This document shows positions 991 to 62,990 of a DNA stretch of 64,000 bases, piece by piece (position 1 is the first letter of the stretch; each line of letters begins with the position of its first letter). Below the pieces are notes generated by a model. It worked only from the letters and a program-made list of their open reading frames with translations, did no database searches and was not told the origin of the DNA. The stretch covers positions 124,001 to 188,000 of the forward strand of contig NZ_KB890491.1 in the NCBI RefSeq assembly GCF_000373105.1. The letters run 5' to 3'. The DNA is from Neolewinella persica DSM 23188 (GTDB taxonomy: Bacteria > Bacteroidota > Bacteroidia > Chitinophagales > Saprospiraceae). The position numbers were made by a program, and so were the translations under genes.

Positions 991-1010
991 GGCGCGGACG
1001 CGGGTGCAAA
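991..1010 (-). repeat. Dispersed 20-mer TTTGCACCTGCGNNCGCGCC, copy 1
   Basis: One mismatch to the 18 defined positions of the consensus. It lies 71 bp upstream of the DUF5777 start and reads towards it. Strand here and in later entries is the one on which TTTGCACC is read. Confidence 0.85.
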
Positions 1011-1044
1011 AATAGTTTTTAAGTAGCAAGGAATCCAAGTACCG

Positions 1045-1431
1045 TTACTGCTCCGGGAATCCGGCGTCAAGCCAGCAGGTGATGATAATAAGTTCTTCTT
1101 CTGTCAGGTCTTCGGGCCGGTCTTGCGGTGCATAATTTGGAGGCATACCGATGGTAGCATCATCGCGCACATCAATGACCCGCTGGCGAAAAAGACCGCT
1201 TTCCAAATCAGAGATCAGGCCAAGGTAACTGTCGTATATACCAGGGGCACCTCCCAGGTGGCAGCCACTGTAGGCACAACTTCGTTCGATGATGTCGCGA
1301 ACGTCGGCTTCATAAGTAGGTGTTTCTCCGTCACAGGGCAAGATGACCGGCTCTGGCAGCACGTCGGAAGTGCAGGAGGAGATGATCAGTAAAAAGACAT
1401 AAAACGAGGAAAGCAACCAAAAATAGCGCAT
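1045..1431 (-). CDS. Cytochrome c-like lipoprotein with a CX4CH motif
   Basis: A 128-residue protein starting at 1431 (MRYFWLLSSFYVFLLIISSC), which gives a lipoprotein signal with Cys in the lipobox. After about 25 residues comes ERSCAYSGCHLGG, a C-x4-C-H arrangement expected to bind haem covalently, then GMPPNYAP, whose Met could be the distal ligand, and a C-terminal ITCWLDAGFPE block. The same domain closes the protein at 14087-14878. A periplasmic electron-transfer role is inferred. It lies immediately upstream of the DUF5777 barrel gene, so the two probably form an operon. CX4CH is less common than CXXCH, so haem attachment is likely but unproved. Confidence 0.7.
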   Translation of the reverse strand: MRYFWLLSSFYVFLLIISSCTSDVLPEPVILPCDGETPTYEADVRDIIERSCAYSGCHLGGAPGIYDSYLGLISDLESGLFRQRVIDVRDDATIGMPPNYAPQDRPEDLTEEELIIITCWLDAGFPEQ

Positions 1432-1584
1432 GCTGGTAGTCGATTGAGAGCTAAGGCAACCAAAACGGTAGCTCGATTGTAGGTAAATGCGGTTGTTGCC
1501 GGTTGGCATTTCGCGCGCCGAAGGTACGATGGAACTGGTGCCGGTAGATTCAACCTTTGTAACTTAAACTCAAAAACTGTCAAT

Positions 1585-1998
1585 ATGTACCCCGTTGAAT
1601 TAACGATCCCAATGGCAAAGGACCTCACTGCTCATGGCTTTACTGGCCTGACGAGCGCCGATGAAGTAAATGCTGCCCTGAGTGCTACTGAAGGAACTGC
1701 TCTGTTAGTGGTCAACTCCGTCTGCGGCTGCGCCGCAGCCAATGCGCGCCCCGGTGCGAAGTTTGCCGCGCTCAATGAAAAGAAGCCGGATCACCTCTAT
1801 ACTGTTTTTGCTGGTGTTGATCAGGAGGCCACGGCCACGGCCCGTGAGCACTTGCTGCCTTACCCTCCCAGCAGCCCCGCCATCGGCTTGTTCAAAGACG
1901 GTAAGCTGGTACACTTCCTCGAGCGTCACCACATCGAAGGCCGAAGTGCTGAGATCATCGCTGAGAACCTCAAGATGGCCTTTGACCGGTATTGCTGA
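1585..1998 (+). CDS. Bacilliredoxin, BrxA/BrxB (YphP/YqiW) family
   Basis: 137 residues, the normal length for the family. The active-site C47-G48-C49 lies in VNSVCGCAAANARPG, which is diagnostic of bacilliredoxins. These proteins remove bacillithiol from mixed disulfides on oxidised cytoplasmic proteins. The N-terminal MYPVELTIPMAKDLT block and the C-terminal LVHFLERHHIEGRSAE block also fit. The gene appears monocistronic: divergent from the cytochrome-like gene and followed by two hairpins. Whether the host makes bacillithiol cannot be seen here. Confidence 0.9.
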   Translation: MYPVELTIPMAKDLTAHGFTGLTSADEVNAALSATEGTALLVVNSVCGCAAANARPGAKFAALNEKKPDHLYTVFAGVDQEATATAREHLLPYPPSSPAIGLFKDGKLVHFLERHHIEGRSAEIIAENLKMAFDRYC

Positions 1999-2002
1999 TT
2001 TA

Positions 2003-2051
2003 TTTTCTTGTACTTACTTGCTGGCGAATCCGGCAAGTAAGTACAAGAAAA
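2003..2051 (+). terminator. Perfect 19-bp hairpin after the bacilliredoxin gene
   Basis: Arms 2003-2021 and 2033-2051 are exact reverse complements (TTTTCTTGTACTTACTTGC and its complement) around an 11-nt loop. The A/T-rich base of the stem would act as a terminator in either direction. Confidence 0.75.
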
Positions 2052-2089
2052 CAGATCAGGCCGTGTCCGGGCTCAGCCCGGGAGCAGGG

Positions 2090-2120
2090 AAGACCCGTAG
2101 CGTTGCTGCGGGTCTTTTCT
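2090..2120 (+). terminator. Intrinsic terminator
   Basis: The stem AAGACCCGTAGC pairs with GCTGCGGGTCTT across a very short loop and is followed by TTTCTTGTTT. It backs up the hairpin at 2003-2051. Confidence 0.7.
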
Positions 2121-2276
2121 TGTTTAATGATATTGGGTCGAGACTGGAAACGCGTAGCGTTTCACAAAGCCTTCTCCCTCTCCCTTAGCGAGGCGGTTTA
2201 ACGTTGAAATAACAACCTTCCTACCCACAAATCCATTATCCAAACGTTTTACTGTAGGAAATAACCATTACACTAA

Positions 2277-2696
2277 ATGAACCTCTTTCTTTTCCTCACC
2301 GGACTCCTGCTTTTTTCAGGCCCTCAAACCGTCAGTGTAACGGTGAGCAGCAGCAGCGCTGAGGCTGGAGAGATCCGGCTGGCCGTCTACGCCAGCGAGA
2401 CCGATTTTAAAGAACAACGAGCGGTAACCTCCATCATCAAGCCTACCACTGGTGCCTCCGTTAACCTGAAGGTTGACCTGCCACAAGCCGGAACCTACGT
2501 GCTTGCCGCTTTCCACGACGTGAACGGCAACGGTAAGCTGGACCGTAATTTCTTCGGCATCCCAACGGAGCCCTATGGCTTTAGCCGTCCGCCGGTTTCC
2601 AAGTGGGAAGAGCCCCGTTTTGGGGATATCTCCGCAACGTTCTCCGACAAAAAGGCATCGGCCCGGGTGGAGCTGAAATTGTGGAAGGAGTATTGA
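2277..2696 (+). CDS. DUF2141 domain protein, exported
   Basis: 139 residues with a short signal peptide (MNLFLFLTGLLLFSG). The rest is one DUF2141 domain: GEIRLAVYASETDF at the N-terminal side, AGTYVLAAFHDVNGNGKLD in the middle, and the hallmark FGIPTEPYGFSR near the end. DUF2141 proteins are small periplasmic or surface beta-sandwich proteins of unknown function, frequent in Bacteroidota. It stands alone, with a 75-bp leader after the preceding terminators and an AT-rich island downstream. Confidence 0.85.
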   Translation: MNLFLFLTGLLLFSGPQTVSVTVSSSSAEAGEIRLAVYASETDFKEQRAVTSIIKPTTGASVNLKVDLPQAGTYVLAAFHDVNGNGKLDRNFFGIPTEPYGFSRPPVSKWEEPRFGDISATFSDKKASARVELKLWKEY

Positions 2697-4606: not shown

Positions 4607-4633
4607 ATATTGTACCATGAGCTCCAGCCGCCC

Positions 4634-5995: not shown

Positions 5996-6015
5996 GGCGC
6001 GGCCGCAGGTGCAAG
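5996..6015 (-). repeat. Dispersed 20-mer, copy 2
   Basis: One mismatch to consensus. It lies in the divergent gap between hemB and the epimerase gene, 87 bp before the latter. Confidence 0.85.
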
Positions 6016-6102: not shown

Positions 6103-7137
6103 ATGCAACTAACCATCCACCCCCACGTCCTTCCCCTGGCCAACCCTTTCCGCATCGCCCACGAAAGCCGGACGGAGCAGCCGACCCTGATTGTGGAGTT
6201 GCACGATGAGGCCTCCGGCCTCAGTGGCTACGGCGAAGCGCCGATGACCCGCTACTACGGTCTCGACAGCGACGAGTGCACGGCTCAATTAACTTCCCTT
6301 GCACCTGCGTTCGCGGCAAAAAAAAGCCTGACGCCGCAGGCCACCCATGCCCTGATTGATACCCATGCCCCCGACTTGAACCCTTTCCTGCGTTGTGCGC
6401 TTGATGTAGCCACGCACGACCTTTGGGCCCGCCAGCAAGGCACCCGCCTCGGTCTGCTGTGGGAGCAGGATCGGAGCCGGCACATACCCACCTGCTACAC
6501 CATCGGTCTTGGACCAGTGGCAGAAATGGTGGCTAAACTAAAAGCCTTCCCCTGGCCCGTTTACAAAATCAAACTCGGTCGGGGAGATGATGATGTCGCC
6601 ATCATCAGCGCCCTGCGCGAACACACCGACGCTCCCTTCTACGTCGATGCCAATACCGGCTGGACGGCCCGACAAACCATCGACCTCTCTTCCAAATTGG
6701 CCGACCTCGGCGTCGTCTTTATCGAACAACCCCTGAAAACCGACGACCTGGCCGGACAACGGGAGGTCTTTGCCCACTCTGCCCTCCCCATCCTGGCCGA
6801 CGAAAGTTGCCAGACGGAAGCCGACGTGGCCCGCTGCGCCGAATACTTCCACGGCATCAACATCAAAGTCGTTAAATGCGGCGGCCTACTGCCCGCCCGG
6901 CGAATGATCGCCAATGCCCGTCAGCTCAACCTGCGGGTCATGGCCGGGTGTATGACCGAAAGCAGCGTCGGCATCAGTGCCATCGCTCAGCTACTACCCG
7001 AACTGGATTATGCGGACCTCGACGGTGCTATGCTTCTGGCTAATGACCCTGCTGTAGGTGTTACCTTCGATCCAACTACCGGCTTTGCCATCTTCCCCAA
7101 ATTGGCGGGAACGGGCGTCAGCATTTATCAAAAGTAA
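6103..7137 (+). CDS. Dipeptide (L-Ala-D/L-Glu) epimerase, enolase superfamily
   Basis: 344 residues. The enzyme epimerises dipeptides such as L-Ala-D-Glu released from murein, in the cytoplasm. All expected catalytic features are present: K155 and K157 in YKIKLG, metal ligands D182 (YVDANTGW), E208 (FIEQPL) and D233 (ILADES), and the second acid/base region IKVVKCGG (K255/K258). The N-terminal capping domain contains GYGEAP. Residues 66-72 (LAPAFAA) in the capping domain are encoded by a copy of the 20-bp dispersed repeat, which therefore sits in a folded protein. Substrate choice within the family is not settled by the sequence. Confidence 0.88.
   Translation: MQLTIHPHVLPLANPFRIAHESRTEQPTLIVELHDEASGLSGYGEAPMTRYYGLDSDECTAQLTSLAPAFAAKKSLTPQATHALIDTHAPDLNPFLRCALDVATHDLWARQQGTRLGLLWEQDRSRHIPTCYTIGLGPVAEMVAKLKAFPWPVYKIKLGRGDDDVAIISALREHTDAPFYVDANTGWTARQTIDLSSKLADLGVVFIEQPLKTDDLAGQREVFAHSALPILADESCQTEADVARCAEYFHGINIKVVKCGGLLPARRMIANARQLNLRVMAGCMTESSVGISAIAQLLPELDYADLDGAMLLANDPAVGVTFDPTTGFAIFPKLAGTGVSIYQK
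6298..6317 (+). repeat. Dispersed 20-mer, copy 3 (within a CDS)
   Basis: Two mismatches to consensus. It encodes APAFA in the epimerase capping domain on the sense strand. Confidence 0.7.
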
Positions 7138-10270: not shown

Positions 10271-10290
10271 GGCGCGAACGCAGGTGCAAA
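10271..10290 (-). repeat. Dispersed 20-mer, copy 4 (perfect)
   Basis: Matches all 18 defined consensus positions (GGCGCGAACGCAGGTGCAAA on the plus strand). It lies in the divergent gap between the CotH-like and GntP genes. Confidence 0.9.
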
Positions 10291-13697: not shown

Positions 13698-14086
13698 CTA
13701 CTTCCTCCGCGCTAACTTCTCTCTTTTTCTCAGGCGCGAACGCAGGTGCAAAAGTAGCCGTAGCAGAGCAAAACCCTGTAAAATACAGGTTATACTTCAT
13801 TTCCTTGTTTTCTGGACTGGTGCCCTCTTGTGCACTCTCTGAAAACACGTAAGTGTTTGATTTTCAATAAACTGAAAATGATCTTGCAAGTCGTAGTCTA
13901 CCTGCAATTCCCCCACTGTCTACTATAAGTCGCCCTCTTCTTCTGTGTACGTACACCAACCGTACCCACTCCTTTTTTGGGTTGGGGTAGCAGTTGCCTG
14001 CATCTTGGCATCGCCCCAAGGGAGCACTGCAATTTTTTCAGAATCTCTTTAAGGCGTAGCTCAAAATCCTCCGTAAAATTATTCCC
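13698..14086. other. Gene-free spacer
   Basis: No gene was found. It contains the 20-mer at 13733, a 12-bp palindrome GTGTACGTACAC (13945-13956), and a CCAACC/GGTTGG pair (13955-13985) around a T-run that could terminate transcription. Confidence 0.6.
13733..13752 (-). repeat. Dispersed 20-mer, copy 5 (perfect)
   Basis: Matches all 18 defined positions. It lies 36 bp after the stop of the TPR regulator, preceded by a pyrimidine-rich tract. It is one of two intergenic copies that do not read towards a gene start. Confidence 0.9.
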
Positions 14087-15906: not shown

Positions 15907-16773
15907 ATGAAGTATCCACTGCTACTTAGCCTGCTCCTCGCAGTGCTGATCTCTGCACCTGCGTTCGCGCAAGAAGACGACCTGCTCTCCCTGTTGGAAG
16001 ATGCCACACCGGAGGAGCCTTCCCTGACGCCATCCTCCTTTAAAGGAAGCCGCCTGATCAATGGTCATACGGTTATGACCCGCCGGAAAGGTAGCCTGGA
16101 ATTCCTGATTGCCCACCGCTTTGGCCGCCTGAATTCCGGTGCTTACGAGCTTTTCGGCCTCGACAACGCCAACGTCCGCTTCGGACTGGATTACGGCTTT
16201 ACGGATAAGCTTACCGCTGGCTTTGGACGGAACTCCTTCGAAAAGACTTTCGATGCCTTTGCCAAATACGCCCTGCTGCGCCAGCAAACCGGCGTAAAGA
16301 CGATTCCCGTCTCCGTAACCGCCTTCGCCAGTGGGGCCATCAATTCGCTCCGCCCGATCGACCCCACAACCGAAATTGCATTCTCTGAACGGATTTCCTA
16401 CACCTATCAGTTACTCATCGCACGCAAGGTAAATAGTAAACTATCGCTGCAAGTGATGCCAACACTGGTACACTTCAACACCGTTACCGCCGACCGCGAA
16501 AATGACCTGATTGCACTCGGGCTAGGAGGAAGGTTGTTGCTTACGAAGCGCCTGTCGGTTAATGGGGAATACTATTACCGCTTCGGTGAGCGCGACCTCG
16601 ACACCTACGACGCCATCGCCATCGGCATCGATTTGGAGACGGGAGGACACGTCTTCCAGCTCCAGTTTACCAACAGTCGTTCGATGAACGAGAAAGGGTT
16701 CATCCGAGAAACTACTGGTGACTTTTTTAATGGTGATGTACACTTTGGTTTCAACATTACCCGGACTTTTTAG
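15907..16773 (+). CDS. DUF5777-family outer-membrane beta-barrel protein (second copy)
   Basis: 288 residues from the ATG at 15907. The signal peptide ends SAPAFAQ, and APAFA, the signal-peptidase site, is encoded by a copy of the 20-bp dispersed repeat. The body matches the protein at 42-920: RRKGSLEFLIAHRFGR, DNANVRFGLDYGFTDKLTAGF, SLQVMPTLVHFNT and a C-terminal ETGGHVFQLQFTNS block. It closes the operon starting at 14087, after YceI. A complex set of hairpins follows its stop codon. Confidence 0.78.
   Translation: MKYPLLLSLLLAVLISAPAFAQEDDLLSLLEDATPEEPSLTPSSFKGSRLINGHTVMTRRKGSLEFLIAHRFGRLNSGAYELFGLDNANVRFGLDYGFTDKLTAGFGRNSFEKTFDAFAKYALLRQQTGVKTIPVSVTAFASGAINSLRPIDPTTEIAFSERISYTYQLLIARKVNSKLSLQVMPTLVHFNTVTADRENDLIALGLGGRLLLTKRLSVNGEYYYRFGERDLDTYDAIAIGIDLETGGHVFQLQFTNSRSMNEKGFIRETTGDFFNGDVHFGFNITRTF
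15952..15971 (+). repeat. Dispersed 20-mer, copy 6 (signal-peptide cleavage site)
   Basis: Two mismatches to consensus. It encodes the APAFA cleavage motif of the DUF5777 signal peptide. Confidence 0.7.
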
Positions 16774-16776: not shown

Positions 16777-16885
16777 AAGCAATTGCTCGGCGGCCGAGGC
16801 GGGACGACCTGACTCGTCCGCCGAGGAATTGCTTTGAGACCGCTCGGCCGACGAGTCAGGCCTAAGGGCCGCCTCGGCGGACGAG
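16777..16885. terminator. Three overlapping, competing hairpins
   Basis: AAGCAATTGCTCGGCGG (16777-16793) pairs with 16819-16835 with 16 of 17 matches. CCTGACTCGTC (16808-16818) pairs exactly with 16850-16860. CTCGTCCGCCGAG (16813-16825) pairs exactly with 16873-16885. The pairings are mutually exclusive, so this is either a compound terminator or a structural switch at the end of the DUF5777 operon. Confidence 0.55.
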
Positions 16886-17004
16886 CTTACCACTGCTCTC
16901 ACCTCCTCAACCCATAACCAACCTTTAGCAGATAAGAGATTTCCAGACACGGCACGTGCAACCGTGCCCTGCTACCCTTACGCCCTCTCTACTAATTCAA
17001 TACT

Positions 17005-18828
17005 ATGAACAACCTGCTTTTTACAACACTTCTTATTTGGTTTCCCATTGGCCTGTACGCGCAGGACGACCCACCAGTGGCAAGCTGCTTAGAAAACTTT
17101 ACGGCGGATCTCGGTGCAGATGGAAATATAGTCCTTACTCCTGAAGACCTTAACGACGGTTCGTCTGATACCGAAACGCCCACTATTGAACTCCTCTTCA
17201 GCCTCGACTTCGGCGGCGCGGTGCTGAACTGCGATGACATCGGCGCACCCGCCCAAACCGTTACGCTCATCGTTATGGACGGAGACGGACTTTCCAGCAC
17301 TTGTACCACCCAGGTGAGCGTGGAGGACAACCTGCCCCCCGAAGCCACCTGCCAGAACGTCGCGGTTGAATTGGGCAATAGCGGAAGTTTGAGTCTTTCC
17401 TTAGGCTTTGCCCGAAACGTTATCCTTACCGATTTCGTGGACAATTGCGTTGCTTCACCACCCACTATAAGTATAGCCGGTGGTTCGTCTGTGTTTCGTT
17501 GTGATCAGCTAGGGGTGACCACCCGCACTTTCTTTTACCGCGACGGCAACGGACAGGAAGATCGTTGCAACGACGTCCGTTTCCAAGTTACCGACCCGCT
17601 AGGCGTTTGCGGCGAAGACCCCGTGGCCAACTGCCAACCCTTCACGGTCACCAACCCGATCGAGCCCACCTTGACGCTCAACGCCAATGTCTTCGACAAC
17701 GGCTCCACCGACGACCGCAGTGTCTACACCTTGGTCTATTCCGACGCCACCGACCGCCAGGAAAACACCATCTTCGACTGTAGCACGACGGGCTTCGACC
17801 AGGGGCAGACCTTCACCGCCGGGCAGACGGGCGTGATCCAGTCCATCAAGGTGCGCTCCGGTGCGGCAACGAACACGGAAATACACCTGTACAACGGAAA
17901 TATGGCCACCGACCCTACGGTCGATCCCTCCTCCCCAAATTACAGCCAGAACGTGGAGCTATTTTTCGGCGAGTATTTCAACCGGGCCAATCTTAATGTC
18001 ATGACCCTCGACGAGCCCTTCCCAGTAGTGGCCGGCCAGGAATACACTTTCATCCTTGATACGGGGTCGACCCTGAGTCGTTCCTGCCCCGGTTCGGCCG
18101 ACTACGCGGGTGGCCAACCGATCAGCGGGTTTGGCCTTCAGGATGACCCCGGCGGGCAAGACTTCACCTTCGAGGTCAACATCATCGGGCCGACTGAGAT
18201 GGAGTTCCCCACCGCTGGTCGGACGAACCTAACGGTGTTTGCGGTAGACGATCAGGGCAATGTGTCAGAGGGGTGCGCGACGTCGGTTAACCCCGATCAG
18301 CCGCTACCGGTGGAATGGCTGTCGTTCGGCGCGCACGCAGGTGCAAAGGCGGTTGAACTGCAGTGGGAGACCACCTATGAGCCGGACAATGCCGGCTTCC
18401 ACGTCGAGCGCTCGGCTGGTGGGAACGACTGGTCGGTCATCGGCGAAGTTGCCGCGCGCGCCGGCGCAAACCAACGCTACGACTTTACCGACGCCGCTCC
18501 TTTGGAAGGTACGAGTTACTACCGCCTGCGGCAGACGGACTCTGACGGGCAGGTAAGCTATTCGCCCGTGGAAACCGTCGAGTTCTTTGGCGATGACCGG
18601 GTGATCATCTTCCCCAACCCCGCCACCAATTTGGTCAACATCCAGTTGCCGGCGGGAGCGGAGTTGCTGGAGCTGCTGGACGTTTCCGGTAGAAGCGTTA
18701 ACGCCCGCTTCAGTGGCCGGGAAGGCGAGTTGAACGCCAAGGTTTCCCGGCTTCCCGACGGGGTTTATGTCCTCCGTACCCGACTTACCGACGGGCGAAT
18801 CATTGCCAACCGCTTGGTGGTGCATTGA
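17005..18828 (+). CDS. T9SS-exported surface protein with HYR-like and sorting domains
   Basis: 607 residues. A signal peptide (LLFTTLLIWFPIGLYAQ) is followed by Cys-rich HYR-like modules (VASCLENFTADLGADGNIVL, ATCQNVAVELGNSGSLSLSL), a central lectin-like or sandwich region (about 210-400), a PVEWLSF fibronectin-like module and a C-terminal type A sorting domain (IIFPNPATNLVNIQLPAG to IIANRLVVH). It should be exported through the T9SS and held at the surface. Two stretches of the PVEWLSF module are encoded by the 20-mer: GAHAGAKA (18328-18347) and a degenerate ARAGANQ (18451-18470). Their length fits the module, so the repeats seem domesticated. Confidence 0.82.
   Translation: MNNLLFTTLLIWFPIGLYAQDDPPVASCLENFTADLGADGNIVLTPEDLNDGSSDTETPTIELLFSLDFGGAVLNCDDIGAPAQTVTLIVMDGDGLSSTCTTQVSVEDNLPPEATCQNVAVELGNSGSLSLSLGFARNVILTDFVDNCVASPPTISIAGGSSVFRCDQLGVTTRTFFYRDGNGQEDRCNDVRFQVTDPLGVCGEDPVANCQPFTVTNPIEPTLTLNANVFDNGSTDDRSVYTLVYSDATDRQENTIFDCSTTGFDQGQTFTAGQTGVIQSIKVRSGAATNTEIHLYNGNMATDPTVDPSSPNYSQNVELFFGEYFNRANLNVMTLDEPFPVVAGQEYTFILDTGSTLSRSCPGSADYAGGQPISGFGLQDDPGGQDFTFEVNIIGPTEMEFPTAGRTNLTVFAVDDQGNVSEGCATSVNPDQPLPVEWLSFGAHAGAKAVELQWETTYEPDNAGFHVERSAGGNDWSVIGEVAARAGANQRYDFTDAAPLEGTSYYRLRQTDSDGQVSYSPVETVEFFGDDRVIIFPNPATNLVNIQLPAGAELLELLDVSGRSVNARFSGREGELNAKVSRLPDGVYVLRTRLTDGRIIANRLVVH
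18328..18347 (-). repeat. Dispersed 20-mer, copy 7 (within a CDS, perfect)
   Basis: All 18 defined positions match. It is antisense to the gene and encodes GAHAGAK in the T9SS protein. Confidence 0.85.
18451..18470 (-). repeat. Degenerate 20-mer, copy 8 (within a CDS)
   Basis: 15 of 18 defined positions match. It is 103 bp after a perfect copy in the same gene and frame and encodes AARAGAN; it might be chance in a GC-rich stretch. Confidence 0.4.
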
Positions 18829-18908: not shown

Positions 18909-18928
18909 ACTGCACCTGCGGCCGCGCC
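18909..18928 (+). repeat. Dispersed 20-mer, copy 9
   Basis: Two mismatches to consensus. It lies 76 bp upstream of the gene at 19005 and reads towards it. Confidence 0.85.
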
Positions 18929-21163: not shown

Positions 21164-23113
21164 CTACCGTATCATCGGAATCCGAACCGAACTAGGATAA
21201 GCCGCCGAATGATGTACCTCATTCCGCGCCACCACGCTCTTGCTTTCATCATAGTTACGGCCACCAGTATTCAGGTTACGGTCGAAACGGGGGAAGTTGG
21301 AGCTGGAGACCTCGATGCGAATCGAGTGGCCGGGCTTGAAGTGGTTGGCGGTAGACATTGGCGTGAGGTCGACTTTATATACCTTTCCTTTTTCCATGAA
21401 GACCTCTTTGTCGTAGCCCTCGCGGTAACGGACGCGCTGGATGGTTTCGTCGAGGTTGTAGGCCGTGCCGTCTGGCGCTACGTCAATGAGCTTGACGGTG
21501 AAGTCGGTGTCTTTGGCGTCGGAGCTGACGTAGAGCGTAGTTTCGATGCTGCCGGCAATTTCTACGCCATCGGCGAAGGGTTCGGTGGTGTATACCAGGA
21601 TGTCGTTGCGGGTTTCCATCACACGCTGATCGAAGGCACCGCCTTTGACGGCATTACCGGTACAGCAAACGTTGCCGCCGTAGCTGGGCACTGGGTTCAT
21701 GGGGTCGTAAACGAAGCGGTCGGGCATGTCTTTTCCCGGAGCCTTCTTACTTAGCCGGCCGTTACCGTGCAGGGTGTTGGCGCTGCCGTCGGAGTCAAAG
21801 TAGAACGTCTCCATTTTTGCGGCTGGCGGAGGCCAGGCGGTGGCCGTCTTCCACTCATTGCTTCCCATAACATAGTACTGCACCCGCGGCCGCGCCTTCG
21901 GCTCCTCTCCCTTCAGGTGCTGTGCAAAAAACGCTTCTATCTGTTCCTGATAATTGAGCCGGGCATCGCCCACAGAGCGCTCGCCGACAATGGTGTTTTC
22001 GGTAGCCCGTGTGTAGCCGCAGTGCAGCGTGGGCGCGATGACGAGGTGCTGCTGGTCGCGCATCGCCGGGGTGGTGGCGTTGCTGCGAACGTGGTTGAAC
22101 AGTGCCAGGTTGGGGCTGATGGACACATCATACCAACTCGTAAACCAGAAGGCGGGGACGTCGAAAGGCATGTCATCGTGGTACAGTCCACCCTCAAACC
22201 AGGCCTTGCTGTTCGGGGTGCGGGTGGCCATTTCTTCAAAAATGCCCTTGGGACCGTGCTGCGCCGTGATGATATCCTGCATCGGCAGGGTTTTCAGGCC
22301 ATCTTCCCACGCTACGCGGGGGTATTCCGGAGCCATGTCGTGGAAGCGTTGGAGGCGAAGGAGGTCCTCCCGCGTCGCGCTTTTCGGGATACGGGGCCGC
22401 ATCGGATCGTGCTGCACGGAGTACAGCCAGGCGATGAACAACATCTGGGTGGCACCGCCGCGGTACCAGTTGCCCTGCTCCTGGAACTTACCGACTTTAC
22501 CGACGCCGGCCCCGTAGCCCTGGGGAACGATGGCCTTGAGCGCGGGGTGGCCGAGGGCGGCAACGGCCATCTGCCATTCGGCGGTGGAAGAGCAACCGAT
22601 GAGGCCGATGTTGCCGTTGCTCCAGTCCTGCCCGGCGAGCCAGGTGAAGGCATCGTATCCGTCCGTCGTTGGGGTGCCGAGGATGTCCCACTCGCCCTCA
22701 CTGTAGTAGCGGCCGCGCTCGTTTTGCTCCACGTAGGCGTAGCCCGCCTTCACCCAATCGAGGGCACGCTGGTAGGTGCGGGTACGCTCCTCTCCGTCGA
22801 CCCAGCCGTTCATCTGGTAGGGTGTCCGGCTGAGGATGACGGGGACTTTTTCATCGGTCTTAGGGCGGTAGACATCGGTCCGCAAGCGAATACCGTCACG
22901 CATTGGGGCCATGTGCATTTGCTCGACGTGGGCGAGTTCGGCGAGTTCGAGGTATTCGCGGCTCGACTGCGCCAGTAAGGGGGTAAGGGAAAAAAGGAGT
23001 AAGGGGAGTACGAGTCGTAGTCCTTTATGCCTTTTTCCTGCTACGCTTTTTTTGGGGGCGCGGACGCTGGTGCAATGGAAGTTTCGAAGAAGCAGGGGGA
23101 GGAGCTGGCGCAT
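21164..23113 (-). CDS. CocE/NonD (X-Pro dipeptidyl-peptidase S15) family hydrolase
   Basis: 649 residues. An alpha/beta hydrolase with nucleophile elbow [12 protein letters not shown], acid in SWYDVS and histidine in PTLHCGYTR, followed by the jelly-roll domain ([20 protein letters not shown]). The family includes cocaine esterase and glutaryl-7-ACA acylase. It is exported. The N-terminus is odd: a start at 23113 gives [12 protein letters not shown], then a basic stretch encoded by the 20-mer and a purine tract, then a second hydrophobic run [16 protein letters not shown]. The same design occurs at 42622. A copy of the 20-mer also encodes KARPRVQY at 21877-21896. Confidence 0.85.
21877..21896 (+). 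repeat. Dispersed 20-mer, copy 10 (within a CDS)
   Basis: Three mismatches to consensus, antisense to the S15-type gene; encodes ARPRVQ. Confidence 0.6.
22975..23053. repeat. Fold-back word array within a signal-peptide region
   Basis: The plus-strand left arm is purine-rich (AGTAAGGGGGTAAGGG-type words, about 22975-23012) and the right arm is pyrimidine-rich (about 23013-23053), meeting at TACGAGTCGTA. On the minus strand it encodes the basic linker and the hydrophobic run of the S15-type protein. It ends 4 bp from the 20-mer at 23057. Confidence 0.55.
23057..23076 (-). repeat. Dispersed 20-mer, copy 11
   Basis: Two mismatches to consensus. It falls inside the 5' coding region of the S15-type gene and encodes CTSVRAP. 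Confidence 0.8.
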
Positions 23114-26544: not shown

Positions 26545-26564
26545 ATTGCACCTGCGTTCGCGCC
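26545..26564 (+). repeat. Dispersed 20-mer, copy 12
   Basis: One mismatch to consensus. It ends 25 bp upstream of the pirin start, so it lies in the 5' leader between the dehydrogenase and pirin genes. Confidence 0.88.
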
Positions 26565-29048: not shown

Positions 29049-30260
29049 ATGGCCTACACCCCCCTGAAAATCTCCATCCCTGAACCCTGCCACGAAGACT
29101 GGAATGGCATGCATCCGGTCCCCGGCACCACCGCCCGGCACTGCGACAGCTGCGCCAAGAGTGTGGTGGACTTCACCGGCTTCTCCGATGTGCAGATGCA
29201 CGCCTACGTCCGCGAGCAGGGCGGTAAACTCTGTGGTCGTTTCCGGCCCGATCAGCTTGACCGGCCGCTGCGTGCGGTCAGCACGCCGACGCGCAATCCG
29301 CTGAAGGTAGCAGCTGCTACTGCGGGGGTTTTGCTGGCGGCTACGGGATGTGAGACGCCCAGCTCGGCTACCGGAGCACCTGACGAACAAGATCCGTGGC
29401 AGGCCATTTCGAGCAGCGTACAAGCCCAACCGCCGATGACCGGGGGCATCTCTCTCGTCGAAGTTGAATCAACTCTGGCTGCTCAATCAGAAATGGAACA
29501 CGTCACCATGGGGAAGATTATGCCGCCGACGTCTAAAGTGGGCGAAATAAGTGCCATTGCGCTACCGCCACCGGTTTTTGAGGAGGTTTTCGAAGATTTG
29601 ACGGTTGAAGGGGAAATCATGGTTGAAACTTCCGAAGACCTCAGCTTCATCACTTGTGGTGCAAAAAACATTGAAGCTCCAGAGGAGGATCCAGACTACT
29701 TAGTCGGTGACATTGACCTGAGTGAGGGAGGCCTACAACTCCCCCCAATACTGATAATCGAACAAGACACCATACCGCCATCTGGAACAGTAATAACCGC
29801 TGATCAGATCCGAAACTTGCCGACCCGGGACATCAGTTCGCACCAGGTCGCCATTATGGGTATGGTGGCCATGGACCATCCGCGCCCAACTGGTGTGGAT
29901 TGGATCAAAGACACCCTGAAAAACGTAGTACCGTCGCTGCCAACCTTGCCTCCTAATGACCCGACCCTGCACCAGCGGCCGCGCCCTGAAATGCCAGAAC
30001 ACCTGGAAAACGTCACGGTGTACCCTAACCCATTCGTCGATCACCTGAAGATAGACATCAACCTTCCGGCAGGAGAAACGCTGACGGTGGAACTCCTCGA
30101 CCCCAGCGGCCGGCTTGTTTTTGCCCAAACATGGAAAGCCAGCGCGGGAGCGAATACCCTAACCATCGAACCGAAACAGCGAAAATTGAAGTACGCCATT
30201 TACTATTTGCGGGTTACTGATGAGCGGGAATTTAGTGTGGTGAAGACGGTTTTGAAGTAG
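29049..30260 (+). CDS. Cys-rich N-domain / TonB-plug-like / T9SS sorting protein
   Basis: 403 residues. It has no N-terminal signal. Residues 1-72 form a Cys-rich module (PCHEDWNGMHPVPGTTARHCDSCAKSVVDF...LCGRF) also found in other Bacteroidota proteins of this type. A membrane segment (KVAAATAGVLLAATGC, about 85-99) follows, then a disordered stretch, a plug-like TADQIRNLPTRDISS and a C-terminal sorting domain (VTVYPNPFVDHLKID ... FSVVKTVLK). The topology, cytoplasmic Cys module with an exported tail, is inferred. A 20-mer encodes HQRPRPE at 29966-29985. Confidence 0.65.
   Translation: MAYTPLKISIPEPCHEDWNGMHPVPGTTARHCDSCAKSVVDFTGFSDVQMHAYVREQGGKLCGRFRPDQLDRPLRAVSTPTRNPLKVAAATAGVLLAATGCETPSSATGAPDEQDPWQAISSSVQAQPPMTGGISLVEVESTLAAQSEMEHVTMGKIMPPTSKVGEISAIALPPPVFEEVFEDLTVEGEIMVETSEDLSFITCGAKNIEAPEEDPDYLVGDIDLSEGGLQLPPILIIEQDTIPPSGTVITADQIRNLPTRDISSHQVAIMGMVAMDHPRPTGVDWIKDTLKNVVPSLPTLPPNDPTLHQRPRPEMPEHLENVTVYPNPFVDHLKIDINLPAGETLTVELLDPSGRLVFAQTWKASAGANTLTIEPKQRKLKYAIYYLRVTDEREFSVVKTVLK
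29966..29985 (+). repeat. Dispersed 20-mer, copy 13 (within a CDS)
   Basis: Three mismatches. Sense orientation; encodes HQRPR in the linker just before the sorting domain. Confidence 0.6.
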
Positions 30261-33676: not shown

Positions 33677-33696
33677 GGCGCGGTCGCAGGTGCAGT
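33677..33696 (-). repeat. Dispersed 20-mer, copy 14
   Basis: Two mismatches. Lies between rplY and blaI, which are divergent, about 100 bp upstream of the rplY promoter. Confidence 0.85.
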
Positions 33697-35828: not shown

Positions 35829-35848
35829 TCTGCACCTGCGGCCCCGCC
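35829..35848 (+). repeat. Dispersed 20-mer, copy 15
   Basis: Two mismatches. It reads towards the gene at 36099 and ends 13 bp before the start-less open frame. Confidence 0.85.
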
Positions 35849-39250: not shown

Positions 39251-42200
39251 CTACAACTTCCCAAACAGCCCCAAATTCGCCGCTTCCACGTCTTTGCGGA
39301 AGGCGGCGAAATCCCCGCCAAGGAAGATCTCGATCTTATAGACGAAGTCTGCCGCAGCATTCTGGTACTGCTCCAAAGCAACCTCCGCCATCTGCGTAGG
39401 TGCGCCCTCGACCTGGCCGATGTAGCGGCCAGCGGTGAACATCTTCGCCCGCAGGTTACTCGGATTTCGCTGTATGCCTTTGAGGTCTTCCTCCTCGATA
39501 AAAATTTCTTCAATTTCAGCGATGGTTTTGAGGAGGCCTTTGGCATCCTTCTCCAGACTGTCTTTTACTGCTTTCGGGGCATCCTTGAGCAGGCCCTGGA
39601 CACGCTTGATCGCCTTGCCTGCTTCCTGCAGGTCGTTCCAGGCGGCGGTGAGGTGAGCGGTAGTAGTATCGAGCTCAACGCGCATAGCTTCCTGGGCGAC
39701 CAGGGCGTTGGGGATCTGCTCTTCGCGAGGGTCGGCGTGGACGGTAACCAGGGTCTTGCCCATGTGGTCGCCGTAGGTCATGATCAGTTCGTAGACGCCT
39801 GGACCGACACCAGGGCCGCTCGGTGTATCAGCATCAGGGCGAGGTGCGCGGCGGCTGGGGAAGTCGATGCCGTCCCGGCGCATGTTCCAACTGGTACGGT
39901 TCATGCCCCAGTTTGGCGTGGTCCGGTAAGTCCGGATCGTATCACCGCTCTGCACATCAACCACCTGGATCTTAACCTTGCCTTTAGGCTTGGATTCCGG
40001 ATTGGGGTCGGTGTCCTTATCGGCAACATTGACTTTACCGTAGTAGAGCATGCTGGCCGTTTCGTCCATAGCCTTTTTACCTTCCTTTGCACCTGCGGCC
40101 GCGCCTTCTTTGCCGCCTTTTGCCATTTCTCCTTTCTTCCCTTTACCTTTTTTCCCTTCCTGTGGCATCACCCAGTACGTCAACATAGCTCCACCACGCC
40201 GGTCCTCGCCCTGGAACTGGCCCTGCGCGTAGAAGCGCGTGCCCTGGTAAGAGCGGTATTCCCACTGGTAAGCGTCGGGTGCCGGGAAGACGGCGAAGGT
40301 GTCCTTCAACATGTCCGTGCCTTTGGTCGCGATCTCCCGGAAAGGACGGATGTCGTCCAGGATCCAAACCGCCCGGCCAAAGGTGCCGAGGATGAGGTCA
40401 TGCTCCCGTGGGTGAATCTTGATGTCGCGCGTAGAAACGCCGGGGTAGGTCTTATTATAGTGTGTCCAAGTACCGCCTTTGTCGAAGCTGATCCAGAGGC
40501 CCTGGTCGGTGCCGAGGAAGAGGAGGTTCGGCTCCACCGGGTCCTGCACGATGGCGAGGGCGTGACCGCTGACTTTCTTCTCGTCCACCATGCGGGTAAA
40601 CGTCTCGCCGTAATTGTTGGTGTGGAAGACCATCGGGCGACGGTCGTTGCGGCGGAAATCGTTGACCACCACCCAGGCTTCCGCCGGGTTATGCGGACTC
40701 ACTTCGATGTAAGGAATCCAGCTACCGGGCGTCATGCCGGGCAGGCGGCTGGAGAGGTCGGTCCAGCTACCGCCATCGTCCTTGCTTAAATGCAGTCTCC
40801 CGTCGTCGGAGCTAACCCAGAGATCTTTGCCATTACTGCCGGGGATGATGCACAGCAGGGTGGTGTGGTTCTCCGCTTGCGTTGCGTCGATGGTGAGGCC
40901 ACCGGAGACCATTTGGCGTTGCTTAGTGGTATCGTTCGTCGTCAGGTCAGGGCTGATGATTTCCCAGTGGTCGCCGCAGTCGGTAGACTTATGCACAAAC
41001 TGGCTGCCCATATAGATGGTGCAGTCGCTCTGCGGTCCTTGCGCAATCGGTGCATTCCAGTTGAAGCGGAGGAAGGTACCATCCGGGTGCAGTGGCTTGA
41101 GGGATTTGGTCTTGCCCGTGGTGCGGTTGACGCGGCCCAGGGAGCCGCCCTGGCTGGCAGCGTAGACGGTGTTGGAATCTCCCGGCTTGAAGATCAGATC
41201 AAATCCGTCGCCGAAGTAGACTTCCTGCCAGTCGGACTCGGTGATGCCACCGGACTTCAGGCCCTGGCTCGGGCCGACCCAGCTACCATTGTCCTGCATA
41301 CCGCCACCGACAAGGTAAGGGTAGCTCATGTCGTAGTTGATGTGGTAGAGCTGGGCCAACGGGAGGTTGGCGGCGAAGCGCCAGGTGTCTCCCCCGTCGC
41401 GACTGATGTTCAGGCCGCCGTCGTTCCCATCGATGATGTATTTCGGGTTGTCAGCATCGATCCAGAAGGCGTGGTGGTCGGGGTGAACGGCGTTACCGTA
41501 GTTGGCAATATTGGTGAAGGTCTTGCCGCCGTCTTCGGAGCGGGAGACGTAGGTAGCAATGTCGAACAACCGGTTTTCATTCTGTGGGTCAACATAAATT
41601 TCGCCGTAGTAGAATGGGCGGTCACCGATGCCTTTGTCGGTCACCAATTTCCAGTTCAGGCCGCCGTCGGTGGATTTGTAGAGGCCGTTTACCTTGGCTT
41701 CGACCAGGGCGTAAACGATGTTGGGCTTGTTGTGGGAGATCGTGATGCCGATGCGTCCGAGGTCGCCTTTGGGCAGGCCGTCTTTGGCCGTGCGGCGTTC
41801 CCAGCCGTCGCCACCGTTGTGGGTTACCCAGATACCGGAACCGGGGCCACCGGAGTTGAAGAAATCGGGGTCGCGGTCAAAAGTCCAAGTTGCGGCGATC
41901 AGTTTATTGGGGTTGGTGGGATCCATCACCATGTCGGCAATGCCGGTGCCTTCGTCGACGTAGAGAATTTTCTTCCAGGTCTCTCCGCCATCGGTGGTGC
42001 GGTAAACGCCGCGCTGTTTATTCGGTCCCCACATGGAACCAAGTGCGCCGGCGTAGGCTACATCGGGATTCGTTGGGTGGGCAATTACGCGATGGATGTG
42101 GCGGGTCTTTTCGAGGCCCATATGCCGCCAGGATTTACCGCCGTCGATGCTTTTGTAGATGCCGCCGCCGTAGTTGGCCGAGTTCCGGGGGTTGCCCTCG

Positions 42201-42622
42201 CCGGTGCCGACCCAGATAATGTTGGGGTTAGCGTCGGAGACGGTCAGGGAACCAATGCCGAGGTACTTCTGCTCGTCAAACAGCGGTTCGAAGCTGATGC
42301 CGCCGTTGCGGCTCATCCACACGCCGCCGGAGGCGGTGCCGACGTAGATGTGCTCCTTATCGGTGGGGTTCACATCAATGGCCGTTACCCGGCCAGACAT
42401 GCCGGAGGGACCGATGTTGCGGGGGGCCAGGGCGTCCCAGTGCTTCAGGTCCACTTGCGCAAGTAAAGGCACGAGGGAGAAAAGGAGTAGGGGGAGGACC
42501 AGTGCAAATCGTGGCGGAAGACTTCCTTCCGACCTTTCCCCTTTTACCCCCTTTTTCAGGGCGCGGACGCAGGTGCAAAGAAAGGTGAAAAGAGCAGTAA
42601 AGAGGAACGTTGTTGATCTCAT
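39251..42622 (-). CDS. Large exported BNR-repeat (sortilin/VPS10-like) protein
   Basis: 1,123 residues. It consists mostly of Asp-box/BNR repeats: SIDGGKSWRHMG, TTDGGETWKKIL, STDGGLNWKLV, SEDGGKTFTNI, SRDGGDTWRFA, SKDDGGSWTDL and SFDKGGTWTHYN. They form one or two beta-propellers. A C-terminal helical tail follows (LKDAPKAVKDSLEKDAKGLLKTIAEIEE). It is probably a secreted or surface glycan-binding or peptidase-associated protein. The start at 42622 yields a hydrophobic stretch, a 20-mer-encoded CTCVRAL, a basic stretch, then [16 protein letters not shown], the same design as at 23113. A second 20-mer plus Lys/Gly-rich array sits near residue 850. Confidence 0.82.
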   Translation of the reverse strand: MRSTTFLFTALFTFLCTCVRALKKGVKGERSEGSLPPRFALVLPLLLFSLVPLLAQVDLKHWDALAPRNIGPSGMSGRVTAIDVNPTDKEHIYVGTASGGVWMSRNGGISFEPLFDEQKYLGIGSLTVSDANPNIIWVGTGEGNPRNSANYGGGIYKSIDGGKSWRHMGLEKTRHIHRVIAHPTNPDVAYAGALGSMWGPNKQRGVYRTTDGGETWKKILYVDEGTGIADMVMDPTNPNKLIAATWTFDRDPDFFNSGGPGSGIWVTHNGGDGWERRTAKDGLPKGDLGRIGITISHNKPNIVYALVEAKVNGLYKSTDGGLNWKLVTDKGIGDRPFYYGEIYVDPQNENRLFDIATYVSRSEDGGKTFTNIANYGNAVHPDHHAFWIDADNPKYIIDGNDGGLNISRDGGDTWRFAANLPLAQLYHINYDMSYPYLVGGGMQDNGSWVGPSQGLKSGGITESDWQEVYFGDGFDLIFKPGDSNTVYAASQGGSLGRVNRTTGKTKSLKPLHPDGTFLRFNWNAPIAQGPQSDCTIYMGSQFVHKSTDCGDHWEIISPDLTTNDTTKQRQMVSGGLTIDATQAENHTTLLCIIPGSNGKDLWVSSDDGRLHLSKDDGGSWTDLSSRLPGMTPGSWIPYIEVSPHNPAEAWVVVNDFRRNDRRPMVFHTNNYGETFTRMVDEKKVSGHALAIVQDPVEPNLLFLGTDQGLWISFDKGGTWTHYNKTYPGVSTRDIKIHPREHDLILGTFGRAVWILDDIRPFREIATKGTDMLKDTFAVFPAPDAYQWEYRSYQGTRFYAQGQFQGEDRRGGAMLTYWVMPQEGKKGKGKKGEMAKGGKEGAAAGAKEGKKAMDETASMLYYGKVNVADKDTDPNPESKPKGKVKIQVVDVQSGDTIRTYRTTPNWGMNRTSWNMRRDGIDFPSRRAPRPDADTPSGPGVGPGVYELIMTYGDHMGKTLVTVHADPREEQIPNALVAQEAMRVELDTTTAHLTAAWNDLQEAGKAIKRVQGLLKDAPKAVKDSLEKDAKGLLKTIAEIEEIFIEEEDLKGIQRNPSNLRAKMFTAGRYIGQVEGAPTQMAEVALEQYQNAAADFVYKIEIFLGGDFAAFRKDVEAANLGLFGKL
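40086..40105 (+). repeat. Dispersed 20-mer, copy 16 (within a CDS, perfect)
   Basis: All 18 defined positions match. It is antisense to the BNR gene and encodes GAAAGAK. A pyrimidine-rich array (plus strand, 40106-40163) adjoins it and encodes a Lys/Gly-rich insert. Confidence 0.85.
42466..42557. repeat. Fold-back word array in a signal-peptide region
   Basis: A purine-rich arm (about 42468-42505) and a pyrimidine-rich arm (about 42524-42557) flank about 20 bp. On the minus strand they encode the basic linker and [16 protein letters not shown] of the BNR protein. The right arm ends 2 bp from the 20-mer at 42560. Confidence 0.55.
42560..42579 (-). repeat. Dispersed 20-mer, copy 17 (perfect)
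   Basis: All 18 defined positions match. It sits in the 5' coding region of the BNR gene and encodes CTCVRAL. Confidence 0.9.
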
Positions 42623-45769: not shown

Positions 45770-46115
45770 GGGGTGGTATTTTGCGAATGGAGGGTTAATC
45801 CCCTTAAAGTCGCAGTTTATAGTCATGAGAGACCTAAACATAGTATTTTTTTCAAAAACCTGCTCCTTAATCAACTTCGTATATGCACCTGCGGCCCCGC
45901 CCCTTTGAAATTTCCAGTTGTCAAGTCTCAGTCATCCGGGAAATGAGAGCTGTTATACCTGACGGAATCCTAAATACCGGCACCTGATCGCTAATCACTG
46001 AATCCTGATCGCTAAATACTATCCCCTTTCCCACCAACGTTCGAAACATCACGCCCTTAAAAGCGTATGTACAGTTGCCCTTCTTCCCCAGGCAAACAAA
46101 AACCCCAAGCAAAAC
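45770..46115. other. Divergent spacer upstream of porX
   Basis: No gene seen. Contains the 20-mer at 45882 and a degenerate word array (CCTGATCGCTAA-type) at about 45955-46021. Confidence 0.6.
45882..45901 (+). repeat. Dispersed 20-mer, copy 18
   Basis: Two mismatches. It reads towards porX, 214 bp from the start codon, in a divergent gap. Confidence 0.85.
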
Positions 46116-52146: not shown

Positions 52147-52166
52147 GGCGATGGCGCAGGTGCAAA
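52147..52166 (-). repeat. Dispersed 20-mer, copy 19
   Basis: Two mismatches. Reads towards the GCS2-CBS gene. Confidence 0.8.
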
Positions 52167-52242: not shown

Positions 52243-52262
52243 ACGGCACCTGCGGCCGCGCC
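52243..52262 (+). repeat. Dispersed 20-mer, copy 20
   Basis: Three mismatches, all in the variable TTT end. Reads towards the DUF3089 gene. Confidence 0.8.
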
Positions 52263-56850: not shown

Positions 56851-56870
56851 GGCGCGGCCGCAGGTGCAGC
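56851..56870 (-). repeat. Dispersed 20-mer, copy 21
   Basis: Two mismatches. In a divergent gap; reads towards the MlaD-like gene. Confidence 0.82.
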
Positions 56871-58827: not shown

Positions 58828-58847
58828 CCTGCACCTGCGGCCGCGCC
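58828..58847 (+). repeat. Dispersed 20-mer, copy 22
   Basis: Two mismatches, in the TTT end. Lies 118 bp upstream of lysS and reads towards it. Confidence 0.85.
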
Positions 58848-60489: not shown

Positions 60490-60490
60490 T

Positions 60491-61372: not shown

Positions 61373-61437
61373 TCGTCTAGTAGCCTCGTGCGGGAGCCCC
61401 CACAAGATTACTGAACTACTAGACCACAAGACTATCC
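61352..61437. repeat. Inverted word array after lgt
   Basis: The left arm (61352-61383) with GTAGTTCAGTAGTCTAATCG words includes the lgt stop; the right arm (61405-61437) carries the complement (CTGAACTACTAGACC). It ends 2 bp from the 20-mer at 61440. Confidence 0.6.
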
Positions 61438-61439
61438 AG

Positions 61440-61459
61440 GGCGCGGCCGCAGGTGCAAA
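61440..61459 (-). repeat. Dispersed 20-mer, copy 23 (perfect)
   Basis: All 18 defined positions match. It lies between two plus-strand genes and reads away from the next gene, as at 13733. Confidence 0.9.
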
Positions 61460-61550
61460 GAAAGGTTTTGAAGCAGGAAGCGGATGCAACGGATGCACCC
61501 TGAACTTCGTTATTGTGGTTGAGGGGGAATCCCCGACCTTAGCCTGACTA

Positions 61551-62576
61551 ATGAATTTCCCCGATCAACTGCTTTTCTTTTTTTCTGCCCTGGGTGCCTT
61601 CAATGGCTTACTCCTGGCGCTGTATTTGCTGTTTTTTCTTCGTCCGGCAAGACTAAGTAACCGACTCCTGGGCCTGCTCCTGCTAGCGTTGAGTGTTCGG
61701 ATTGGCAAGTCGGTCTTTTTGTTTTTTAACCGGGAGACGGCACCACTGTTCATTCAAATAGGCCTGACGGCCTGCATCTTCATCGGCCCACTATTATGGG
61801 CTTACCTGAAGGTGGAGCGAGATGGGATAAAAAAACTTCCCGCCAGCTGGTGGATTGGCTTTGGGGTGCTGGCTGGCTTCATCGTGGGCTACGGATTGTG
61901 GAGACCTTACATGCTGTACCCGGAGAGTTGGAACTGGGAGTTCATCAGCGTCATTTACGGTATATGGGCGCTGGGTGTCCTTGGCGGAGGGGTGGTGCTG
62001 TGGCCCCTAATTCGCAAAAAAGAATGGTCAACTATCGACCTTTGGCTCGTAAACGTCTTTGCCGGTAACCTAATCGTCCACCTGGCGTACCGGTTCTCTT
62101 CGTACACCAGCTACATCGTTGGAGCTTTGTCGTTTTCTTTTGTTTTTTACCTTTTGGGGTTGTGGTTCATTTTGCAGCGCAGGCAGGCCGGGTTTCTGGT
62201 AGAGGATCGCCCGCGCTACGGCGATCGGAAGATCGACGACCATGAAGCTGCGGCCTTACTGGCCCGCTGTAACGCAGCGATGGAGGGGCAGCAACTCTTC
62301 CTGCTGGCCAACTTCAAGCTGGACGATCTTGCCCAGGCCGCCGGAAGCACGGCGCACCAAATCAGTCAGCTGTTAAACGACAATCTCGGCCAAAGCTTTG
62401 CCACCTACGTACGCGGTTACCGGGTACGGCACGCCCAGGAAAAAATCCTTACCGATGACCACCTGACGCTGGAAGCGATCGGGGAAGAAGCCGGGTTCGG
62501 CTCAAAGTCTGCTTTCTATGCAGCGTTCAAGGAAGTAGCGGGGACTACTCCGGCCCGGTACCGGAAGGAACAGTAA
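61551..62576 (+). CDS. AraC-type regulator with a membrane sensor domain
   Basis: 341 residues. The N-terminal 210 residues hold about seven membrane segments (LLFFFSALGAFNGLLLALYLLFFL, LGLLLLALSVRIG, LFIQIGLTACIFIGPLLWAYL, SFVFYLLGLWFIL). The C-terminal AraC HTH pair is NFKLDDLAQAAGSTAHQISQLLNDNLGQSF and LTLEAIGEEAGFGSKSAFYAAFKEVAGTTPARYRKEQ. It is a one-component membrane-bound regulator common in Bacteroidota. Targets are unknown. Its membrane part resembles the orphan at 8039-8800. Confidence 0.85.
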   Translation: MNFPDQLLFFFSALGAFNGLLLALYLLFFLRPARLSNRLLGLLLLALSVRIGKSVFLFFNRETAPLFIQIGLTACIFIGPLLWAYLKVERDGIKKLPASWWIGFGVLAGFIVGYGLWRPYMLYPESWNWEFISVIYGIWALGVLGGGVVLWPLIRKKEWSTIDLWLVNVFAGNLIVHLAYRFSSYTSYIVGALSFSFVFYLLGLWFILQRRQAGFLVEDRPRYGDRKIDDHEAAALLARCNAAMEGQQLFLLANFKLDDLAQAAGSTAHQISQLLNDNLGQSFATYVRGYRVRHAQEKILTDDHLTLEAIGEEAGFGSKSAFYAAFKEVAGTTPARYRKEQ

Positions 62577-62990
62577 GGTGGGGAGTTGTTGGCACGCTTT
62601 TTCAGCATAAATATGGAAGAATACAGTTTTGACGCAGCGTATACGTCCAATATTATAATTCTACACTAGTGGACTTGTTGAAAATTAGCGAAAGTCAATG
62701 GCTGATCCGAGGTTTGCATAATCAATCTAACCCAGCAAGCCTAAGAGCTTCTTCGAACATACCGCAGTAATAGTCAGGACAAAATACAGCCGGTTGACTC
62801 TTGCCCTCTTCCCTTGCTCCTTTACGCTCTTCCTTTGCACCTGCGACCGCGCCAAAGAAAGTCAGCGCGTCAGGGAGCCAAATAGTCAGGGAGTAGTTGT
62901 GAAGAAGGCGATGGTAAAATACGCTGGGTCCGGAATGCCAAAACAAAATATACTCAAACCACTGATCTCCATCACCAAACCACCGTACCA
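62577..62990. other. Spacer with a 20-mer and a word array
   Basis: No gene. The 20-mer at 62834 is followed on the GCGCC side by GTCAGGGAG words (62859-62890). Confidence 0.6.
62834..62853 (+). repeat. Dispersed 20-mer, copy 24 (perfect)
   Basis: All 18 defined positions match. Reads towards the NTF2-like gene, 137 bp away. Confidence 0.9.

Follow-up and report, generated by a model that had tools for sequence, protein, structure and literature searches.

The window, a 64,000-nucleotide stretch of the Neolewinella persica DSM 23188 genome (contig NZ_KB890491.1, positions 124,001 to 188,000), carries a dispersed, oriented repeat with a core of about 20 bp. Its copies fall within or near genes that include an S15 peptidase, a Sortilin/Vps10-like protein and proteins with type IX secretion sorting tails. 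This oriented word tiles each strand over 3–4 kb in all six species that we sampled, a result that holds whatever its function. The repeat is probably a mark that cells read directionally on DNA, most likely during DNA uptake.

We searched for the pattern TTTGCACCTGCGNNCGCGCC, which has 18 defined positions, and counted up to three mismatches as a match. The window holds 24 matches, against a mean of 0.07 and a maximum of 2 in 100 shuffles. This bears out the original prediction, made from the letters alone, of 23 copies plus one degenerate copy where chance would give none; all seven copies that it called perfect (10271, 13733, 18328, 40086, 42560, 61440, 62834) are so. An Rfam scan of the window at the gathering threshold gave no match. 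The copies are as follows.

991..1010, minus strand, motif copy, 1 mismatch
5996..6015, minus strand, motif copy, 1 mismatch; divergent pair with 6298
6298..6317, plus strand, motif copy, 2 mismatches; within a mandelate racemase/enolase-family gene (LAPAFAA), G013 orthologue ungapped
10271..10290, minus strand, motif copy, perfect
13733..13752, minus strand, motif copy, perfect
15952..15971, plus strand, motif copy, 2 mismatches; encodes SAPAFAQ near the N-terminus of a DUF5777 protein, in what looks by eye like a signal peptide
18328..18347, minus strand, motif copy, perfect; antisense within a gene whose product bears a type IX secretion sorting tail (GAHAGAK)
18451..18470, minus strand, weak, doubtful copy, 3 mismatches
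18909..18928, plus strand, motif copy, 2 mismatches
21877..21896, plus strand, motif copy, 3 mismatches; antisense within the S15 peptidase gene
23057..23076, minus strand, motif copy, 2 mismatches; close to the predicted start of the S15 peptidase gene
26545..26564, plus strand, motif copy, 1 mismatch
29966..29985, plus strand, motif copy, 3 mismatches; within another gene whose product bears a sorting tail for type IX secretion
33677..33696, minus strand, motif copy, 2 mismatches
35829..35848, plus strand, motif copy, 2 mismatches
40086..40105, plus strand, motif copy, perfect; antisense within the Sortilin/Vps10-like gene (GAAAGAK)
42560..42579, minus strand, motif copy, perfect; close to the predicted start of the Sortilin/Vps10-like gene (LCTCVRA)
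45882..45901, plus strand, motif copy, 2 mismatches
52147..52166, minus strand, motif copy, 2 mismatches; divergent pair with 52243
52243..52262, plus strand, motif copy, 3 mismatches; divergent pair with 52147
56851..56870, minus strand, motif copy, 2 mismatches
58828..58847, plus strand, motif copy, 2 mismatches
61440..61459, minus strand, motif copy, perfect
62834..62853, plus strand, motif copy, perfect

The whole 7.08-Mb genome (G000) holds 1,679 copies at up to three mismatches, 840 forward and 839 reverse, versus five (4 + 1) for a control pattern read backward; the genome-wide frequency, which had been proposed as a check, thus lies far above control. Strand counts are equal genome-wide, yet one stretch (C2) has 51 versus 30. 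We read about 12% of this genome (864 kb: stretches from three contigs and the window) and 3–8% of five relatives. The 226 copies at up to three mismatches in the 864 kb outline an element longer than the 20 bp first described: about 20 mostly pyrimidine bases 5′ of the core, the core itself, and a short A-rich 3′ flank. Both flanks surround intergenic and coding copies, with pyrimidine fractions of 0.69 and 0.65, respectively. Nor does the central dinucleotide vary freely, as had been claimed: of the 293 copies in the 864 kb, 251 have C as its second base. The information content of the motif is about 25–28 bits across 21 positions.

Copies of the repeat tend to alternate in orientation and to be evenly spaced on each strand. 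One scoring matrix per species gave 293 hits in G000 (about 8 expected to be false), 103 in G013 (3), 82 in G017 (3), 135 in G010 (3), 37 in G001 (2) and 41 in G006 (1). Neighbours alternated in 213 of 289 cases in G000, versus 144 in shuffles, and in 71 of 102 in G013, 57 of 81 in G017, 91 of 132 in G010, 17 of 27 in G001 and 25 of 40 in G006. Alternation exceeded orientation shuffles in the first four genomes (P at most 0.0002) and was not significant in G001 (P 0.15) or G006 (P 0.10). Same-strand gaps were more even than orientation shuffles in all six, with a coefficient of variation of 0.47–0.70 versus 0.73–0.90 (P at most 0.003). This evenness holds per strand; across both strands, close divergent pairs increase the variance. 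In G000, 35 pairs of neighbouring copies lie 38–396 bp apart, 29 of them divergent.

Same-orientation copies avoid one another over about 3–4 kb, and opposite-orientation copies hardly do. We compared observed with expected pair counts, pooling the six genomes, under a null that preserves intergenic and coding densities. In bins reaching to 250, 500, 1000, 2000, 3000 and 4000 bp, the observed/expected ratios were 0.18, 0.10, 0.20, 0.34, 0.47 and 0.84 for same-orientation pairs, 0.78, 0.62, 0.59, 0.65, 1.09 and 1.15 for convergent pairs, and 2.05, 1.36, 1.13, 1.04, 1.02 and 0.97 for divergent pairs. Restricting the analysis to intergenic copies leaves the avoidance in place, as does restricting it to coding copies, although the pairs are then few.

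Copy orientation is independent of transcription in G000. Genes were called with a home-made dicodon model whose starts are rough and which is poor on the G001 pieces (54% coding), a source of error in coding-copy counts. Predicted genes contain 118 of the 293 G000 copies, 67 with the gene's direction and 51 against it (gene placement covered 291 of the 293), and in tandem gaps 43 copies point with transcription and 45 against. These counts do not support the suggestion of an ordinary regulator site. Close divergent pairs number 11 in tandem gaps and 13 in divergent gaps. Intergenic copies are densest in divergent gaps (1.18 per kb), followed by tandem (0.79) and convergent ones (0.37), and intergenic density is 4.5 to 7 times coding density in five genomes and 1.9 times in the poorly called G001. 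Separately, 17 of 85 in-gene copies in the 864 kb lie 38–68 bases past a predicted start on the same strand; translated, many of the start-proximal copies would form the last part of a stretch resembling a signal peptide (LCTCxRAQ, SAPAFAQ), and some may reflect miscalled starts.

Among the 60 genomes searched, the motif is abundant only in the window's genus. At up to two mismatches, all 21 Neolewinella/Lewinella genomes match, with between 2 and 1,264 copies (G001 2, G010 3, G014 1,148, G000 1,264), and all 39 genomes of other genera have 0 or 1. Among the matches listed, and judged by title, at least 104 stretches lie in named genomes: 80 in Neolewinella/Lewinella, 4 in Saprospiraceae, 15 in one Bacteroidia bin and 5 in unrelated genomes.

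Spelling of the word varies among the six sampled species. Over-represented words, found with no prior motif in samples of 160–864 kb from six species, were GCACCTGCGNCCGCGCC in G000, GCACCYGCGGCAGCGCC in G013, GCWCCYGCGTCCCCGCC in G017, ACCTGCGCTCCGCCGCC in G001, the nearby CCTGCGCTCCGGCGCC in G006 and, as an outlier, CATTGCTACTTTGNTAGCCAAAA in G010. Their layout is similar and their spelling differs. Since G001 and G010 have words of their own, both genomes do possess the feature, and from its layout and identical tiling we infer that the G010 word is the same one. Genus genomes have either the motif or their own word, which goes against the refuting outcome named earlier, relatives lacking the motif. 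A hairpin or palindrome as the functional form was rejected, the GCG/CGC arms being lost in the words of G017 (TCCCC) and G010. The word search found nothing similar in 60 kb of G021 and 24 kb of G023, from two other genera of the family; it equally missed G017's known word in 60 kb. Over-represented words of what seems to be another type of repeat, CCCGATTGACC and GGAAGTCGGAA among them, do occur in the 60 kb of G021 (L301-L303).

Comparison of orthologues points to change in place. Copies inside genes occur in several reading frames. In MtaB, the 25-residue segment that includes a perfect copy at C1:27038 is ungapped in 28 of 28 sequences, 18 from the genus and 10 from other families (28 of 30 cut loci, with one that has an internal stop and one paralogue omitted, and a partial G007 sequence with a stop kept). 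At this site G013 bears its own AGCGCC ending, G004 and G017 read GCTCC..CCCGCC in the local dialect, and G016, G012, G001, G010 and the 10 outgroups have the same length and no motif. Orthologue comparisons at 50% identity or more, with reciprocals counted twice, were ungapped at the motif in 39 of 41 cases and gapped in two; in eight of the 41 the orthologue has its own dialect at the same place and in the same orientation. An overlapping set gave 13 of 15 ungapped; of the two gapped cases, one falls inside a long gap, in an alignment at 58% identity, and the other in an alignment that is repetitive and 45% identical. The comparisons indicate that copies replace sequence in place, via either point mutation or recombination, instead of spreading by insertion. 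The 39 ungapped comparisons and the uniformly ungapped MtaB sequences do not support the option of a mobile-element end, raised in the original prediction.

Some virus contigs carry the repeat as well. A scan found 96 stretches that exactly match its 16 defined core letters; most hold one copy and may reflect chance or other hosts. Eighteen virus records were searched whole, picked mostly for several or perfect copies, and several look like one phage, so they are not independent. One contig (G060), which bears a tape-measure gene, has 7 copies in 38.7 kb, and another (G061) has 11 in 44.6 kb. Same-strand distances never fall below 3,345 bp in the 18 records (four computed, the rest read from a table). 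Outside the 18, record L372 shows matches on one strand at distances of 12 and about 700 bases, including two that overlap and have three mismatches. The contigs with 11 and 7 copies (IMG/VR, L322 and L349) possibly belong to viruses of this genus, and the motif could help assign hosts to virus contigs.

We favor an uptake-like function because in-place change, species dialects that re-spell shared sites, regular spacing, an excess between genes and occurrence in virus contigs together match uptake sequences as reported in parts of the literature (PMC3630211, PMC2397512, PMC1939737, PMC7811141, PMC6776037). An uptake-like signal was among the options first offered, and it fits best given the dialects, even spacing, change in place and virus contigs. 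We know of no process other than molecular drive by which hundreds of sites could change their spelling between related species. The chances are about even that the repeat acts across the genus as an oriented recognition signal, functioning in the manner of a DNA uptake sequence, propagated by molecular drive and read directionally. Somewhat short of even, and so more tentative, is the fuller proposal of an uptake signal beyond Neisseriaceae and Pasteurellaceae, in Bacteroidota, read one way by a system lacking a recognizable type IV pilus ATPase, in which per-strand tiling would record the polarity and 3–4 kb reach of an import machine and dialects would act as species barriers.

Under this uptake proposal, an envelope DNA-binding protein would favor DNA with the species' own spelling. 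Imported DNA would recombine, so near-matches would be copied and polished in place by molecular drive and would not jump. In contrast to what has been published on known uptake sequences, reading would have a direction: each copy would serve the DNA on one side, or one strand, for about 3–4 kb, which would make same-orientation copies redundant within that reach and opposite ones mostly not. The pooled data show the order expected of a one-sided importer, for which a same-orientation neighbour would be redundant, a convergent one redundant in part and a divergent one not. The system would operate without the usual type IV pilus ATPase. We infer that the reader may be an uptake receptor and that drive may maintain the word. 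Spacing weakly suggests action directed toward the CGCGCC side; the suggestion is weak because convergent depletion is mild.

Several observations weigh against uptake. That convergent depletion comes mainly from G000 and is absent in G010 below 1 kb (1.25, 1.04, 1.40). ComEC, found in all 21 genus genomes, and DprA, found in 20 of 21 (all but G009, a genome 55% complete), count in favor of uptake, though both proteins are widespread. A convincing type IV pilus ATPase was not found in the 21 genus genomes with PF00437, pilins and secretin not having been searched. PF00437 matches in the genus are all partial: the best span 84 of 370 positions, score about 25 bits and lie in frames of about 950–1,070 amino acids, and the others are weaker. 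In 11 of the 21 genomes such matches narrowly pass the cut-off, and we take them to be probably other ATPases; full-length matches occur in G041 and G046, from other families. Riemerella has a competence protein with a DUF5689 domain (PMC8459023), and that domain was found in one of 19 genus genomes examined. That genome is G010, the dialect outlier, where three stretches match within a 708-residue frame (C115:8691-10592). Many recent Neisseria DNA uptake sequences (DUS) are said to derive from recombination and not point mutation (PMC2397512), and in Haemophilus influenzae the orientation of the motif is reported to make no difference to uptake (PMC1939737).

A Chi-like oriented recombination signal is a possible but unlikely alternative. 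A helicase-nuclease, for example of AddAB type, would enter at a DNA end, recognize one orientation, stop degrading and load recombinase, so that both strands would need evenly placed copies. This would account for polar tiling over a few kilobases on both strands and for virus copies, since phages would benefit, and the motif's density is near that of Chi in E. coli K-12 (69 Chi in 300 kb). Chi is 8 bases long, short beside a motif of this information content, and the motif's spelling varies between species of one genus. Moreover, the 300 kb of E. coli show neither same-orientation avoidance of Chi (observed/expected 1.21, 1.02 and 1.86 in bins to 500, 1000 and 2000 bp) nor alternation (20 of 63 versus 22.5 shuffled). 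RecC (PF04257) is in 0 of 21 genus genomes and was found in the E. coli control; AddAB was not searched.

We doubt that the repeat is a chromosome-organizing site, at which a structural protein or a motor barrier with polarity would need one copy per few kilobases per direction. Even oriented tiling in six species, the lack of a transcription link in G000 and the intergenic excess in five genomes all suit it. Hundreds of re-spelled sites, however, would seem to call for a drive, which a site of this kind would not have, and virus contigs have no obvious need for it. Improbable, too, is a mark of self for a directional DNA-scanning defense system that destroys unmarked DNA: tiling would cap unmarked stretches, and density is similar in the host genome and some virus contigs, but a change of dialect would presumably endanger the cell, and no such system was found, none having been searched for. 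A global transcription regulator site or promoter element is very improbable. The denser divergent gaps speak for it; against it stand the many copies within predicted genes, the balance in tandem gaps and same-orientation avoidance over kilobases, and the promoter reading was rejected because copies show no orientation bias relative to genes. A dispersed mobile element, such as a repetitive extragenic palindromic (REP)/RAYT element or the end of a miniature inverted-repeat transposable element (MITE), is barely credible despite the dispersed copies, recognizable flanks, close divergent pairs and few gapped comparisons (2 of 41 and 2 of 15), since orthologues are mostly ungapped and the words of G017 and G010 do not preserve the GCG/CGC palindrome.

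Other repeats were seen in the same DNA. A second group of over-represented words in the 864 kb of G000, such as TTGCAGGGGTT, reaches 60–66 occurrences per 11-mer and is unrelated to the motif. At 16785-16886 the window has a separate element of about 110 bp with nested inverted repeats, in three arm pairs of 14–18 nt. It matches many places in G000 on both strands, as well as G010, G018 and G008, and looks like a REP- or MITE-type repeat.

If true, an uptake signal in this genus would add a phylum to sequence-specific DNA uptake and point to a receptor unlike the pilus system. Open papers on transformation, competence or uptake sequences in Lewinella, Saprospiraceae and Bacteroidetes, judged by titles and abstract openings, report no such signal. 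Tiling offers a direct handle on the treatment of imported or processed DNA, and the dialects could lead genetically to the reader protein.

Among known systems, one in the same phylum is that of Riemerella anatipestifer, a member of the Bacteroidota that is transformable with proteins unlike the well-known machinery and in which ComEC and DprA are essential for competence (PMC8459023). Both proteins are present in the two groups, and a difference lies in DUF5689, found in just the single genus genome noted above. The abstract and two sections of the Riemerella competence paper mention no uptake sequence (PMC8459023). Two other classes are set apart by their behavior: copies here do not spread by insertion, as REP/RAYT elements or MITEs do, and their orientation does not follow promoters, as that of regulator sites does.

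Uptake signal sequences (USS) consist of a core plus flanking tracts. Those of Pasteurellaceae are reported to be in surplus in non-coding DNA and evenly spaced, although the discussion of the same paper finds the spacing less even than a compaction signal would predict (PMC1939737), and Pasteurellaceae prophages carry them (PMC6776037). The repeat resembles USS in its non-coding excess, even spacing, core with flanks and presence in viruses or prophages. It differs in that orientation matters for spacing here; the irrelevance reported for USS concerns uptake, not spacing. One subclass of close inverted USS pairs overlaps within 14 bp, as terminators (PMC7811141), whereas close pairs here are 38–396 bp apart and mostly divergent. 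Among the USS and DUS passages listed on spacing and orientation, none describes orientation-dependent spacing.

The DUS of Neisseriaceae number thousands of copies per genome and come in lineage dialects (PMC3630211), with a spacing reported to match conversion-fragment length (PMC2397512). They are 10–12 bp long, unlike the roughly 20 bp plus flanks here, where tiling is orientation-specific and the PF00437 search gave no convincing ATPase of a type IV pilus, the machinery that supplies a DNA-binding minor pilin in known uptake systems. The likeness to DUS lies in many copies per genome, dialects and spacing. With DUS and USS together, the repeat shares an excess over chance on both strands, in genes and between them, along with change in place, re-spelled species dialects, even spacing per strand, and the company of ComEC and DprA.

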